A stretch of DNA of 64,000 nt from Pseudomonas marvdashtae. GTDB taxonomy: Bacteria > Pseudomonadota > Gammaproteobacteria > Pseudomonadales > Pseudomonadaceae. The notes under the pieces are model-generated. The model was not told where the DNA came from and did not search any database. It saw only the letters and a list, made by a program, of their open reading frames with translations. The stretch lies in assembly GCF_014268655.2 (NCBI RefSeq), contig NZ_JABWQX020000004.1, positions 62,001 to 126,000 of the forward strand. The letters are read 5' to 3'. Position numbers and translations under genes: made by a program. Of this stretch, positions 46,674 through 51,415 are shown one piece after another (positions within the stretch are counted from its first letter, which is position 1; each line of letters starts with the position of its first letter).

Positions 46674-47162
46674 ATGGAAACACAAAAACGCGTTAACGCA
46701 ATCGAGCCGCGCTTTGAACAGGGACGCTTTCAGCTCATCGCCGGTTTCGGCGCGCGTTTTACCCAGGACACCGCCCAGGACATCCCGCTGCTCTGGGAAA
46801 AATTCCTGCCTTGGCTCGGTAAGGTGCCAGGTCAGAAAGACGAAGTGACCTATGGAGTGTGTTGCAACCCGGACGGCCAGGGTGGCTTCGAATACATCGC
46901 CGGCGTGGAAATCAGTCGGCTCGACGACCTGCCGGAGCAATACCGCTGGATCGAAATCCAGCCCGGGCCCTATGCTGTGTTCCAGCACAAAGGGCCGCTG
47001 AAAAGCCTTCCGGACACCTTCCAATACATTTGGAAAGAATGGCTGCCAACGTCCGGCCACCAAGCGGCGGATGAGCCTGAGTTCGAGCGCTACAGCGAGG
47101 ATTTCAATCCCAGGACCGGTGAAGGCACCCTGGAAATCTGGATACCCCTCAAACCGAGCTGA
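46674..47162 (+). CDS. GyrI-like small-molecule-binding protein
   Basis: A 162-residue protein with a GyrI-like/AraC effector-binding (SOUL-like BRCT-fold) domain: FQLIAGFGARFTQDTAQDIPLLWEKFLPWLGKV, YGVCCNPDGQGGFEYIAGVEIS, YAVFQHKGPLKSLPDTFQYIWKEWLP and the C-terminal GTLEIWIPLKPS. No DNA-binding domain is attached, so it is a stand-alone ligand-binding or gyrase-inhibitory-like protein. It overlaps the convergent GNAT gene by 14 bp. Confidence 0.88.
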   Translation: METQKRVNAIEPRFEQGRFQLIAGFGARFTQDTAQDIPLLWEKFLPWLGKVPGQKDEVTYGVCCNPDGQGGFEYIAGVEISRLDDLPEQYRWIEIQPGPYAVFQHKGPLKSLPDTFQYIWKEWLPTSGHQAADEPEFERYSEDFNPRTGEGTLEIWIPLKPS

Positions 47163-47664
47163 GCGATGGATCCGTCTGGTCAAACACCAGCCGCATCCGC
47201 CGTTCATAACCGATACGGCCTTTATAGGCCTCGCCGCTGTCGACCCAGCCCAGTCGCGTGTACAGGCCAATCGCTGCTTCATTGTCGGCGTCGACTGACA
47301 GCTCCAGTCCATTTATTTCCGGCCACGCCGAGCGCGCCACCGTCGGCAATGCCTGCAAGCAGGCCTTGCCGTATCCCTTGCCCTGGGCTCGGAAGTCGAC
47401 CTGCAAGGCATGCAGGGTGGCGCTGTGTTCATCGGCCCACGCGGGCAGCACGGGCGGGCGCTTGAGCAGCAAGAACGCGACGGGCACATCGCCAGCCAGC
47501 AATGCGAAACCCTTTACACCCGGCCCGGGCCTGGACAGCAGCGTATGCAGTGCACCGTGGATATCGCCGGAAAACTTGATCTGGTCAGGGTGGATTTCGA
47601 TGGCTTCGACCTGTTGCTGTTGCGTCGGGGTCAGGTCTTCATAGGGTACGAGCTGAGCGGTCAC
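47149..47664 (-). CDS. GNAT family N-acetyltransferase
   Basis: A 171-residue acetyltransferase. Motif A: LHALQVDFRAQGKGYGKACLQAL with the QGKGYG acetyl-CoA loop; ELSVDADNEAAIGLYTRLGWVDSGE is the usual C-terminal block. The substrate is not deducible. Its 3' end overlaps the GyrI-like gene by 14 bp. Confidence 0.88.
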   Translation of the reverse strand: MTAQLVPYEDLTPTQQQQVEAIEIHPDQIKFSGDIHGALHTLLSRPGPGVKGFALLAGDVPVAFLLLKRPPVLPAWADEHSATLHALQVDFRAQGKGYGKACLQALPTVARSAWPEINGLELSVDADNEAAIGLYTRLGWVDSGEAYKGRIGYERRMRLVFDQTDPSLSSV

Positions 47665-47741
47665 GAAAACGTCCGTTGTTTGCCGAGAGAATGGGTCTCG
47701 GATTCTAGCGAAAATTTTTCTTTGGTTTATTTTTGTTTGGC

Positions 47742-47768
47742 TGTCGATTCACCGTTTCTCCAGACGAC
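47742..47768 (+). promoter_or_regulatory. ECF42-type promoter
   Basis: TGTCGA (47742-47747), 17-nt spacer, CGAC (47765-47768). This matches the ECF42 target pattern reported for Streptomyces (TGTCGA at -35 and CGA/TC at -10), as far as I recall. It lies 38-64 nt upstream of the SnoaL-like gene, first of a probable operon ending with the ECF42 sigma gene. Confidence 0.7.
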
Positions 47769-47805
47769 TAAGGATGTCTCTAACAAAAACCTGCGGAGAA
47801 TCATC

Positions 47806-48240
47806 ATGAATACCCAAGCTACCGAAAGCGAAATCCAGACGCTGATCGACACCTATCGCCAGGCGGTCATGGCCAAGGACGTGGAAAAGGTCATGGCACT
47901 CTATGACGACAACATCGTCTCGTTCGACGCCATCCAGGCCCTGCAATTCAAGGGCAAGGTCGCCTACCGGGCCCATTGGGAGGCGTGCATGGAAATGTGC
48001 CCCGGCCCGCACAAGTTCGATTTCCATCAGGTCCAGATCACGCCGGCCGAGAACATCGCGTTCGCCCATTGGCTGGCCTATTGCGGCGGCACCAACGACA
48101 AAGGCGAAGAGCAGGCATGCTGGATGCGCGTGACAGCTTGCTACAAGCGTACGGCCGGCGCGTGGAAGATCGTCCATGAACATTGGTCGGCGCCATTCGA
48201 CCCGATGGCGGGTACGGCGATATTCGACTCGCAGCCCTGA
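47806..48240 (+). CDS. SnoaL-like/DUF4440 protein in the ECF42 operon
   Basis: A 144-residue NTF2-fold protein (YybH/SnoaL-like): ESEIQTLIDTYRQAVMAKDVEKVMALYDDNIVSFDAI and a C-terminal WMRVTACYKRTAGAWKIVHEHWSAPFDP. Such proteins bind small molecules or act as isomerases. CGGAG is 8 nt before ATG 47806. The ECF42-type promoter upstream and the 56-bp gap to the DGPF gene indicate membership of the sigma operon. Confidence 0.85.
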   Translation: MNTQATESEIQTLIDTYRQAVMAKDVEKVMALYDDNIVSFDAIQALQFKGKVAYRAHWEACMEMCPGPHKFDFHQVQITPAENIAFAHWLAYCGGTNDKGEEQACWMRVTACYKRTAGAWKIVHEHWSAPFDPMAGTAIFDSQP

Positions 48241-48296
48241 TCGGCTACGGTTTCCTCCTGCCACCTTTGTCGATCGGTTCGATCACGGAGCTTTCC

Positions 48297-48641
48297 ATGA
48301 AGTATTTATGCCTGGTGTATAGCAACGAACAGGCCCTGCACAACTCGCCCGACAGCCCTGAGGACGCAGAGTGCATGGCTTATGCCGAGTCGATCCAGGG
48401 CAGCGGCCGGATGGTTGCCGCCGAAGCCCTGGAGTCGGTGCAGACCGCCACCACGGTGCGCATGCGCGGCGGCAAGCTGTCGATCACCGACGGCCCGTTC
48501 GCCGAAACCAAGGAGCAACTGGCGGGCTTCTACCTGATCGATGCCAAGGACCTCAACGAGGCCATCCAGGTCGCCGGCAACATACCGGCGGCCCGGGTCG
48601 GCTGCGTTGAAGTCCGGCCGGTCCGTCAACTCAATCCCTGA
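48297..48641 (+). CDS. YCII-related DGPF-domain protein
   Basis: A 114-residue protein of the YCII/DGPF family. It starts MKYLCLVYSNEQALHN and has the diagnostic DGPF at residues 65-68 within LSITDGPFAETKEQLAGFYLIDAKDLNEAI. Genes of this family are the conserved companions of ECF42 sigma factors and are their usual targets. Biochemical function is unknown. CGGAG lies 7-8 nt upstream of ATG 48297. The gene ends 28 bp before a 25-codon ORF. Confidence 0.92.
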   Translation: MKYLCLVYSNEQALHNSPDSPEDAECMAYAESIQGSGRMVAAEALESVQTATTVRMRGGKLSITDGPFAETKEQLAGFYLIDAKDLNEAIQVAGNIPAARVGCVEVRPVRQLNP

Positions 48642-48668
48642 ACAGCAACCACGAACAGGACTGTGTCC

Positions 48669-48746
48669 ATGAGTCTCAAACCCGCATCTTTGGAGTGGGC
48701 CGTCGGCCGGCTCGAAATGCTGATAGCCCAAGGCATGCCCGACTGA
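48669..48746 (+). CDS. Possible 25-aa leader/coupling peptide
   Basis: This ORF runs from ATG 48669 to TGA 48744-48746, encoding 25 residues (MSLKPASLEWAVGRLEMLIA...QGMPD). AGGA is 8 nt upstream, a credible ribosome site. Its stop overlaps the sigma start codon in TGATG, so it would couple translation. The sigma start has no good ribosome site of its own. It may be a coupling ORF or the relic of a longer gene. Confidence 0.45.
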   Translation: MSLKPASLEWAVGRLEMLIAQGMPD

Positions 48747-49981
48747 TGCCGGGCGAGGCGGTCAAGGCGCGGGTCGAGCAGGTTTATCGGCAGGACTCGC
48801 GGCGGATCCTGGCAACGCTGATTCGCTTGCTGGGCGACTTTGATCTTGCCGAAGAAGCCCTGCACGAAGCGTTCTTCATTGCGGTCGAGCGCTGGGAGCG
48901 CGACGGTGTGCCGGACAATCCGCGGGCGTGGCTCGTGTCCGCCGGACGTTTCAAGGCGATTGACAGCCTGCGCCGTCGGGCGCGCTTCGCGGCGTCCCAG
49001 CCGATGCTGGTTGCACAGCTCGAAGAGCTGGAGCAGGCCGATTGGAGTGGTGAGGACGTGGAAGACGATCGCCTTCGGCTGATTTTTACCTGTTGCCATC
49101 CGGCCCTGGCGGCTGATGCCCAGGTGCCGTTGACGCTGCGTGAAGTGTGCGACTTGACCACCGAAGAAATTGCCCGTGCCTTTCTCGCCGCGCCGGCGGC
49201 CATCGCCCAGCGCATCGTTCGGGCCAAGGCGAAGATTCGCGACGCGAAGATTCCCTATCAAGTGCCATCGCGCACCGAACTCCCGGAACGACTCGACAGT
49301 GTGTTACGGGTGATTTACCTGGTGTTCAACGAGGGGTATTCGGCCTCGATGGGCGCCGAATTGACCCGTGAAGATCTCACCCGCGAAGCCATACGCCTCG
49401 CGCGTTTGCTGATGGAGTTGTTGCCGGAAGCTGAAGTCATGGGGTTGTTGGCGCTGATGCTGTTGCACGAATCGCGACGCCGGGCACGAAGCTCGGTGAC
49501 GGGTGAACTGATTCTGCTGGACGAGCAGGACCGATCCCTGTGGGATCAAGGGATGATCGCCGAAGGCTGTGCCATGGTGGAGGCCGCGCTCAACACCCGG
49601 CGGTTCGGACCCTATTGTCTGCAAGCAGCGATTGCCGCCGTGCACGCTGAAGCGCCCACCGCGCAAGAAACCGACTGGCCGCAGATCGTTGGCCTCTACG
49701 ATGTGTTGTTGCGCGCGATGCCATCGCCAGTCATCGAGCTCAACCGCGCGGCTGCCCTGGCCAAGCGCGATGGGCCGCAGGCAGGGTTAAGTCTGGTCGA
49801 GGGGATACTCGCAAGGGGTGAGTTGCTCGACTATCACCTGGCCCATTCGGCGCGGGCGGAATTCTGTCGGCAGTTGGGGCGGGTGGAGGAGGCGAGGGCG
49901 GCTTATGGACGGGCGCTTGAACTGACGCAGCAATTGCCGGAGCGACGGTTTATCGAAGCCAGGTTGGCCGGGTTGGATTAA
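48746..49981 (+). CDS. ECF42-type RNA polymerase sigma factor with C-terminal extension
   Basis: A 411-residue protein: sigma region 2 (about 1-75; RVEQVYRQDSRRILATLIRLLGDFDLAEEALHEAFFIAVERWERDG, AWLVSAGRFKAIDSLRRRARF), region 4 (about 110-165; LTLREVCDLTTEEIARAFLAAPAAIAQRIVRAKAKIRD) and a helical C-terminal extension of about 240 residues with TPR-like repeats. Size and DGPF neighbour identify the ECF42 group, which lacks an anti-sigma factor; the extension is thought to control activity. ATG 48746 overlaps the preceding small ORF. A longer frame reaching 48695 would overlap that ORF and lacks a ribosome site. A terminator follows at 50025. Confidence 0.92.
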   Translation: MPGEAVKARVEQVYRQDSRRILATLIRLLGDFDLAEEALHEAFFIAVERWERDGVPDNPRAWLVSAGRFKAIDSLRRRARFAASQPMLVAQLEELEQADWSGEDVEDDRLRLIFTCCHPALAADAQVPLTLREVCDLTTEEIARAFLAAPAAIAQRIVRAKAKIRDAKIPYQVPSRTELPERLDSVLRVIYLVFNEGYSASMGAELTREDLTREAIRLARLLMELLPEAEVMGLLALMLLHESRRRARSSVTGELILLDEQDRSLWDQGMIAEGCAMVEAALNTRRFGPYCLQAAIAAVHAEAPTAQETDWPQIVGLYDVLLRAMPSPVIELNRAAALAKRDGPQAGLSLVEGILARGELLDYHLAHSARAEFCRQLGRVEEARAAYGRALELTQQLPERRFIEARLAGLD

Positions 49982-50024
49982 TAGTCCAAAGGCTCGCTGG
50001 CATTCCATTTCCGGCCGACTTCAA

Positions 50025-50052
50025 CAAAAAAGGCGACCCGAAGGTCGCCTTT
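50025..50052. terminator. Bidirectional terminator between the ECF42 gene and icmP
   Basis: AAAAAAGGCGACC-N4-GGTCGCCTTT with A-run and T-run on either side; serves both convergent genes. Confidence 0.93.
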
Positions 50053-50071
50053 CTCATTCGCCCAACGTTGA

Positions 50072-51415
50072 TCAGAACTCGTGATCAGCGCTGTCCGGGT
50101 TCAGGTCGCTGATGCCCAGCTTGCCTGCGGCTTGTTCGATCGAACCGGTCTGCTTGACCAGGGCGGCGATGGCGTCGCGCACGATCTGGTTGCCCGCGGT
50201 GTTGCCGGCGGCGATCAACTGATCGTAGTGCTCACCCTTGTTGGCGTGATCGACCATGACCTGGATCTTGGCTTCGGTGTCGGCGAGGTCGGCCTTGAGC
50301 GCGGTGTCAGCGGCCGGATCGGCCTTGGCTACCAGCGACGACAGGCTGGCGCCGGTCATCTTGGTGCCGTCTACGCGGGAGTATTCGCCCAGGTAAACGT
50401 TACGGACACCCTTGGCATCGTAGAAATGCGAGTAGTGGGTGTTGTCGCTGAAGCAGTCCTGCTCGTCTTCTGGCGAGTTGGCTTCCAGGGACACCTTCAT
50501 GCGCTCGCCCGCCAGTTCGCCCAGGGACAGGCTGCCCATGCCGAACAGCATTTTGCGCAGGCCGGTTTCGGCCGGCTCGGCTTCCAGGGTGGCGCGGTAG
50601 TTGTCGGCCACGTTCGGCTTCCAGTTACCGACCATTTCCTGCAGGTCGTTGACCAGCAGCTGGGTCACGGACTTCAGATAGGCACGTCGACGGTCGTTGT
50701 GGCCACCGGTGGCGCCTGCGCCTTCCAGGTAATCCGAAGCTGGGCGATTGCCAGCACCAGGGCCGGTGCCGTTGAGGTCCTGGCCCCACAGGAGGAATTC
50801 GATGGCGTGGTAGCCCGTTGCGACGTTCGCCTCGGAACCGCCCAGCTCGTTCAGGCTGGCGAGTTTTTCCGGGGTAATGTCCTTGACATCGACCTTGTCT
50901 TCGCCGACCTGAACTTCGGTATTGGCGATGATGTTGGCGGTGGCGCCCGGGTTACCCAGGGCATGCTCGTAGGACTTGTCGACATAGTCGATCAGGCCCT
51001 CGTCCAGGGGCCATGCGTTCACTTGGCCTTCCCAGTCGTCGATGATGGTGTTGCCGAAGCGGAACACTTCGCTCTGCAGGTAAGGCACGCGGGCGGCGAC
51101 CCAGGCAGCCTTGGCGGCTTTCAGGGTGTCGGCGTTCGGCTTGGCCAGGAACGCGTCGACGGCGGTTTGCAGGGTTTTCGCGGTGGATTCGGCATCGCTG
51201 TAGACGGCATAGACGATGTCGGCATAGTGCGCGACAACAGCCTTGGCGGCGGTTTCGTCGATCTTGCCAGCGGCAGCGGGGGCAGCCGGAGCAGCGGTAC
51301 TGGCGGCCGGCGTTGGCGCTTGCGGCGCGGCGGCCTTGTCTTTGCCTTCGCCGCAACCGGCGAGGGAAATAGCGATGGCCAACAGACTGGCGGTAGCCAG
51401 AGGCATACGAATCAT
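50072..51415 (-). CDS. icmP: Imelysin-family lipoprotein (IcmP-like)
   Basis: A 447-residue exported lipoprotein: signal peptide with lipobox LAGC (Cys21), a Pro/Ala-rich linker, then an imelysin peptidase domain (M75). The GxHxxE motif is GYHAIEFLLWGQDL. DCFSDNTHYSHFYDAKGVRNVYLGEY and the helical repeats are also typical. P. aeruginosa IcmP was described as an insulin-cleaving metalloproteinase; imelysins are often iron-linked. ATG 51415 has AGGA 8 nt upstream. The same order icmP-bifA-sodB occurs in P. aeruginosa (PA4370-PA4366). A dyad upstream is a possible Fur site. Confidence 0.88.
   Translation of the reverse strand: MIRMPLATASLLAIAISLAGCGEGKDKAAAPQAPTPAASTAAPAAPAAAGKIDETAAKAVVAHYADIVYAVYSDAESTAKTLQTAVDAFLAKPNADTLKAAKAAWVAARVPYLQSEVFRFGNTIIDDWEGQVNAWPLDEGLIDYVDKSYEHALGNPGATANIIANTEVQVGEDKVDVKDITPEKLASLNELGGSEANVATGYHAIEFLLWGQDLNGTGPGAGNRPASDYLEGAGATGGHNDRRRAYLKSVTQLLVNDLQEMVGNWKPNVADNYRATLEAEPAETGLRKMLFGMGSLSLGELAGERMKVSLEANSPEDEQDCFSDNTHYSHFYDAKGVRNVYLGEYSRVDGTKMTGASLSSLVAKADPAADTALKADLADTEAKIQVMVDHANKGEHYDQLIAAGNTAGNQIVRDAIAALVKQTGSIEQAAGKLGISDLNPDSADHEF

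Follow-up and report, generated by a model that had tools for sequence, protein, structure and literature searches.

The 64,000-nucleotide stretch analysed here, hereafter the window, comes from Pseudomonas marvdashtae (RefSeq assembly GCF_014268655.2, contig NZ_JABWQX020000004.1, positions 62,001 to 126,000) and carries a plus-strand operon whose last gene encodes a sigma factor of the extracytoplasmic function (ECF) group ECF42. A predicted ECF42 promoter of the form TGTCGA-N17-CGAC (extended: TGTCGAT-N16-CGACTAA), recognised by its footprint among relatives, a sequence logo and a matrix score, lies at 47742..47768 and reads TGTCGATTCACCGTTTCTCCAGACGAC. It is followed by snoaL at 47806..48240, encoding a SnoaL-like protein of 144 aa with the NTF2 fold (Pfam SnoaL_3, 1.7e-17; solved relative 3f7s, 5.7e-45, which we take to be the SnoaL protein PP_4556 of Pseudomonas putida KT2440), and by dgpf at 48297..48641, encoding a YCII protein of 114 aa that contains the DGPF motif (Pfam YCII, 1.1e-24; solved relative 1s7i, PA1349, 2.7e-38). 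Next come a 25-codon stub of an AHSA1 gene at 48669..48746, identified from its frame and by comparison with the intact genes of relatives, and the gene for the ECF42-type sigma factor of 411 aa at 48746..49981.

The sigma protein combines a recognisable core (Sigma70_r2 3.7e-09 and Sigma70_r4_2 5.3e-08, both above the Pfam cut-off) with an extension of about 245 residues beyond region 4, which ends near residue 164 of 411. The extension matches DUF6596 (1.5e-37), and its C-terminal TPR matches at residues 365-399 fall below the Pfam cut-offs, so that the TPR part is weak. Among the matches listed (25 of 26), no NCBIfam sigma model scored above its cut-off, and no solved relative was found by sequence at E 0.001. 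The gene is present in a single copy in the genome. No anti-sigma gene adjoins the operon, as judged by Pfam from the nearest neighbours only, which are GNAT and imelysin genes. A previous sequence-only reading of this DNA had named the motif and the SnoaL-like, DGPF and sigma genes, all of which are confirmed at the stated places; the ECF42 type and the lack of an anti-sigma factor, which it also proposed, are supported. The locus thus resembles the ECF42 group in its long, TPR-rich C-terminal extension, its neighbouring YCII/DGPF gene and its lack of an anti-sigma factor (PMC8999054). It also resembles the ECF41 (SigJ type) factors, where a SnoaL-like domain is linked to an ECF sigma factor and there is likewise no anti-sigma factor; in ECF41, however, SnoaL is fused to the sigma factor, whereas here the two are separate genes, Pfam finds no SnoaL match in the sigma protein and the sigma factor carries DUF6596.

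For comparison, the sigma gene was searched for in 149 Pseudomonas genomes, of which 129 had some match and 100 a long match (E 1e-150 or better, counted by hand). The remaining matches were weak, as a rule about 30% identical, and one was a short fragment in genome G052. There, only 37 residues of the sigma factor are left and an exact promoter-like site lies about 1 kb away (L300), possibly marking a dying operon. Loci were drawn from 98 of the 100 long-match genomes (G095 and G076 were left out); a DNA search across 398 genomes contributed 30 more and a set of named loci 80, the last two sets being biased to close relatives. Of the 212 loci, 3 had no sigma match and 16 had no dgpf upstream of sigma; the other 193 had dgpf there and were reduced to 164 distinct sequences after truncated copies, including L114 and L115, had been merged. 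At one locus (L053, genome G125) the sigma gene is split into two overlapping frames covering residues 1-358 and 358-410, which indicates a frameshift or a sequencing error in the extension.

The sequence-only reading had regarded snoaL as a local addition at the front of the operon, a view that did not hold up: snoaL is present at 153 of the 164 distinct loci, and on these sequences it is the normal state in this part of the genus. It is missing from 11 loci, and at 8 of these the promoter lies no more than 200 nt from dgpf. Two others (L138 and L151) have neither SnoaL nor a promoter site within 200 nt of dgpf nor an AHSA1-type start, and represent a more reduced form.

What sets the window apart is instead the gene between dgpf and sigma. 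At 73 of the 164 loci this interval holds a fourth, full gene, whose product is AHSA1 (Pfam 6.3e-35; one protein tested); the gap between dgpf and sigma is about 500 bp in many relatives, corresponding to a gene of about 160 codons, versus 104 in the window. When the loci were classed by gap length, blind to reading frame (intact, at least 470 bp; stub, 24-469 bp; the rest absent), 34 further loci were stubs and 57 lacked the gene, while the genus-wide part of the sample (82 loci) gave 46 intact, 10 stub and 26 absent. The stub of the window (48669-48746) reads MSLKPASLEWAVGRLEMLIAQGMPD; its start resembles that of intact AHSA1 (MNLKPASFELSISR...), as does its end (...RLEALVTQGMPD), and its stop codon overlaps the sigma start by 1 nt (TGATG). 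The three nearest sampled loci (L131, L100 and L101; sigma DNA 85-86% identical) are stubs too, of 20-21 codons and with different inner sequences. A quick maximum-likelihood tree built from the sigma gene alone (168 rows) requires at least 21 changes between the intact and the lost state, or 26 losses if loss is one-way, counts that could fall through recombination or tree error. Most likely the operon of the window is derived from a four-gene form, snoaL-dgpf-ahsA-ecf42. This is also how it differs from ECF-10 (PP4553) of P. putida KT2440, the Pseudomonas example of ECF42 (PMC4613276). In place of an intact AHSA1 gene the window has the 25-codon stub. The KT2440 operon itself presumably has all four genes.

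Loss of AHSA1 does not reflect a decaying operon, an explanation we reject on the low dN/dS of the other genes: against three stub and three intact relatives the ratio is 0.04-0.06 for sigma, 0.02-0.06 for dgpf and 0.05-0.10 for snoaL, which indicates that the operon is under purifying selection. Replacement of the lost gene by the one other AHSA1 gene in the genome was considered and set aside, that gene being hardly an ortholog, as it is 26% identical to the operon type across 70 residues. Taken together, the sequences describe a real, functional-looking ECF42-type operon, the departure of which from the four-gene form is the loss of AHSA1 and not a gain of SnoaL.

The reading frame of the remnants is highly regular. 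The stop of AHSA1 and the start of sigma overlap at each of the 73 intact loci (TGATG in 59, TTGA in 14). The AHSA1-type ATG is kept at 30 of the 34 stub loci, and in 29 of these 30 the frame is open to the sigma start (in L075 the ATG was assigned by judgement, another ATG there sharing the sigma frame); the in-frame junctions are TGATG, or ATGA in L070 and L073. Grouped by eye into junction classes, 17 of 18 are in frame (chance at one third, 9.6e-8), and all 16 sigma-tree clades with stubs include in-frame ones (2.3e-8). Where the gene is absent, the end of dgpf lies -8 to +7 nt from the sigma ATG at 56 of 57 loci, the remaining one having no ATG.

Could this bias have arisen neutrally, with out-of-frame deletions missed or a few events falling in frame by chance? 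Shared ancestry means that 29 of 30 does not amount to 30 independent events, and three junction types occur inside the clade of the window itself, as a neutral process would allow. On the other hand, the sorting into classes used gap length and ignored the frame, and the bias persists across every clade and nearly every junction class, so we consider a neutral origin decidedly unlikely. A different possibility is that the 25-codon frame has a function of its own, encoding a leader peptide or small protein by which sigma translation is regulated, and is not a relic kept for coupling only. In favour are its ATG, its open frame and a weak ribosome-binding site, together with the short frames that relatives have at the same place; yet the peptides vary widely in sequence and in length (the 29 in-frame cases span 11 to 133 codons), 57 of the 164 loci do without the gene, and both ends of the stub match intact AHSA1 proteins, the end point alone being common to all. 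We hold this to be improbable as well, if by a small amount less so than neutrality.

The sigma start itself offers little to an independent ribosome. Mean Shine-Dalgarno duplex energy is -3.2 for sigma (n=148) versus -3.1 at random positions, and is alike in the intact, stub and absent classes (-3.1, -3.5 and -3.2); the corresponding means are -6.8 for snoaL (n=153), -6.9 for dgpf (n=164) and -6.8 for ahsA (n=74). In the window the ribosome-binding site of sigma is likewise weak (-3.0). Among neighbouring genes, an overlap of 1 or 4 nt is much the most frequent arrangement, and in six tested pairs a distance of about 20 nt nearly abolished reinitiation (PMC10666635). The sigma junctions resemble such termination-reinitiation at -1/-4 nt overlaps in having a 1- or 4-nt stop/start overlap and no separate ribosome-binding site, but differ in that the upstream gene is intact in the known cases, whereas here the coupling appears to outlive it. 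Because the Shine-Dalgarno signal does not rise above background, the genes overlap in this way and reinitiation depends on distance, selection for coupling is the best reading of the frame bias; the likeliest cause is selection that would keep sigma translation coupled to the preceding cistron.

Turning to transcription, TGTCGA-N17-CGAY lies upstream of snoaL at 153 of 153 snoaL-bearing distinct loci (CGAC in 152), and in 75 loci it starts 53-109 nt before the start codon with a spacer that is always 17. In the logo, the wider pattern is a T-rich tract followed by TGTCGAT-N16-CGACNA[AG]GG. Past the CGAC box, aligned positions 28-39 are strongly conserved (approximately GGGTGTCTTC; 155 distinct promoter loci), which exceeds what a start site by itself would call for. 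When a matrix was made from 42 sites in other genomes (40 remote and two between sigma and dgpf, with no snoaL promoter among them), it scored the site of the window at 26.4, versus 11.2 for the next best in 64 kb. The genome scan for TGTCGA-N16..18-CGAC proposed by the sequence-only reading proved hardly informative, and the bare pattern was rejected as evidence by itself, since it occurs at 102 genome sites versus 76 in the reversed control. The extended pattern TGTCGAT-N16-CGACNAR, by comparison, gave 112 sites in 79 genomes versus 10 for the control pattern (controls counted by hand). Given the complete footprint, the excess of the extended motif and the matrix score, the site is beyond chance, in agreement with the promoter that had been proposed before the operon. 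We take TGTCGA/CGAC to be the reported ECF42 promoter motif; the table for Sinorhizobium meliloti has motif types of the form TGTCG...CGTC.

The 112 extended sites comprise 41 within 4.5 kb of a sigma gene and 71 elsewhere, of which 58 were read (the 13 unread are all in sigma-bearing genomes). Of those read, 37 precede, with a good Shine-Dalgarno sequence, a gene of one of five groups, namely DUF899 (14), DGPF (13), DUF1428 (5), VOC (3-dmu-9_3-mt; 3) and GST (2), one protein of each having been identified by Pfam; the other 21 precede other open reading frames (four) or none (17). Such targets occur in at least 26 of 54 genomes with the sigma gene versus 0 of 25 without it (Fisher 4.6e-6, genomes treated as independent). 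In the genome of the window, the operon is the sole exact match of the extended motif, and allowing up to one mismatch gives 21 sites versus 6 for the control. Two of the 20 other sites precede genes of the five groups: one with a CGAT ending at C1:2351249 is predicted before a second DGPF gene, with a VOC gene directly after, and one with TGTCGAA at C1:1448947 (minus strand) before a DUF899 gene (1.8e-101). No site above the matrix threshold was found at the other (L210) of the two further YCII genes of the genome or at one (L347) of its two VOC genes, and DUF1428 was not found in this genome. Separately, a near-palindromic site, TGTCGATTTTTCGGTGGAGCCATCGACAAA, occurs in four genomes (L290 and L331, and two unread sites in G055 and G033), and no five-group gene follows it in the two that were read.

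These data also bear on whether snoaL and dgpf might be transcribed by another sigma factor, the motif being incidental. In favour of this, the bare pattern is common in the genome, but the footprint is complete with an invariant spacer, the scan of 47600-50200 found no sigma-70-type promoter and the remote targets co-occur with the sigma gene, so that we regard this as very improbable indeed.

The kind of gene found at the remote sites would point to a small, perhaps reactive, compound. In Sinorhizobium meliloti, the targets of the ECF42 factor RpoE10 include glyoxalase-like proteins as well as a protein with a hydrophobic-ligand domain (PMC6180224). RpoE10 thus resembles the present sigma factor in having targets similar in kind to the remote genes, and also in having a YCII gene before sigma; it differs in that no SnoaL gene is named for its operon. 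In P. putida, biofilm formation and antibiotic resistance increased when ECF-10 was inactivated (PMC4613276). It is possible that there is no sensor here at all, the DGPF, SnoaL and remote proteins being enzymes acting on a small molecule and the sigma factor only setting their dose. The remote VOC/glyoxalase, GST, DUF899 and DUF1428 proteins do resemble proteins of small-molecule metabolism, and AHSA1 is often lost while sigma, dgpf and snoaL remain under strong selection. Against this, YCII genes lie widely beside ECF42 sigma genes, and some sigma factors carry a YCII domain as a fusion, suggesting a part in control (PMC8999054). Dosing and control may both hold, and pure dosing seems to us a serious possibility that falls short of even odds. 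The ECF42 extension is required for activity and thought to bind a protein or ligand (PMC8999054, PMC9023288).

In the window, the sigma gene lies inside its predicted target unit as the last gene, as had been described, and positive feedback by self-amplification is possible and fits this layout. A sister group of the same genus is arranged otherwise. Twelve of the 16 loci without dgpf upstream (L082, L083, L086-L090, L092-L095 and L097) carry it downstream of sigma; all 12 have the promoter between the two genes, and 1 of the 12 has one ahead of sigma. At the remaining four, neither dgpf nor the motif was found in the 420-480 nt available. By its sequence this sister group is an open-loop form, with sigma outside the target unit.

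As a whole, the gene content, promoter footprint, stub, frame bias, missing Shine-Dalgarno sequence, co-occurrence of regulon and sigma gene, and purifying selection, all read from the DNA, are best explained by an autoregulated ECF42 operon in which sigma is coupled to the preceding cistron and AHSA1 has been lost through deletions that keep the coupling, an explanation to which we assign a probability of roughly 70%. RNA polymerase with the ECF42 sigma factor would transcribe the operon from TGTCGAT-N16-CGAC at 47742 and so act on the unit that contains the sigma gene, and would also drive two predicted remote targets, the DGPF-VOC gene pair and the DUF899 gene. Translation of the sigma factor would fall to ribosomes just finishing the preceding cistron, which would tie its amount to that of the small partner proteins. 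Nearly all surviving deletions of AHSA1 would then either preserve a frame that ends at the sigma start or bring sigma beside the end of dgpf, and the stub of the window would be a case in which the AHSA1 protein is gone and the coupling retained. What we infer in this scheme is that the sigma factor activates its own operon, that the coupling operates in the cell and that a partner protein or ligand controls the extension, the last of these having been proposed in the literature on ECF42.

Several points weigh against it. One stub, L121, which lies inside one of the 16 clades, is out of frame and reaches 8 nt into sigma, so that exact overlap is not an absolute rule of the coupling, and 4 of the 34 stub loci (L046, L138, L151 and L191) have no AHSA1-type ATG, although in L046 dgpf itself extends to the sigma start. 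The ribosome-binding site of the stub in the window is itself weak (-4.0). With junction classes drawn by eye and a quick single-gene tree, the number of independent events is approximate. In the sister group the promoter is outside the sigma unit, and in S. meliloti the first gene of the operon that encodes RpoE10 was not raised when RpoE10 was overexpressed (PMC6180224), so autoregulation is not constant in ECF42.

A stronger form of the argument is that this Pseudomonas-type ECF42 sigma factor is locked by selection to the translation of its preceding cistron, so that the coupling, and not the AHSA1 protein, would be the conserved function at this place, fixing the ratio of sigma to partner proteins in a switch that has no anti-sigma factor, while the same sigma factor would control a small-molecule regulon (DGPF, DUF899, DUF1428, VOC and GST). 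We place this only slightly above an even chance because the event number depends on the eye-drawn classes and the one tree. Our literature search found no paper linking AHSA1, DUF899 or DUF1428 to ECF42 or describing a decay that preserves the frame; the original reports of ECF42 in Streptomyces and of ECF-10 lay outside it, and an earlier description is possible.

Beyond the operon, a possible intrinsic terminator, GGCGACC-CGAA-GGTCGCC-TTTCT, was read by eye at 50032..50054 (no strand assigned; unlisted by the scan), between the sigma gene and the convergent imelysin gene. Upstream lie a GyrI-like/Cass2 effector-binding gene (46674-47162, plus strand) and the GNAT gene (47149-47664, minus strand), the ends of which overlap. 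An anti-phage defence system was considered and rejected, as PADLOC assigned 0 defence families to the SnoaL, DGPF and sigma proteins.

The interpretation given by the sequence-only reading, a self-amplifying circuit whose NTF2-fold and DGPF proteins process or sense a small molecule, is partly supported; the present analysis adds features it had overlooked, namely the 25-codon AHSA1 remnant with its kept stop/start coupling and the wider regulon. In the literature covered, ECF42 sigma factors have no anti-sigma factor and no signal has been reported for them, and the set of small-molecule genes with this promoter, found together with the sigma gene, offers concrete candidates for that signal. 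The frame-keeping decay of AHSA1 is natural evidence of selection for coupling between sigma and its neighbour, and so bears on how a switch without an anti-sigma factor is kept in balance. Finally, the two gene orders found in one genus, with sigma inside or outside its target unit, provide a natural comparison of closed-loop and open-loop forms.

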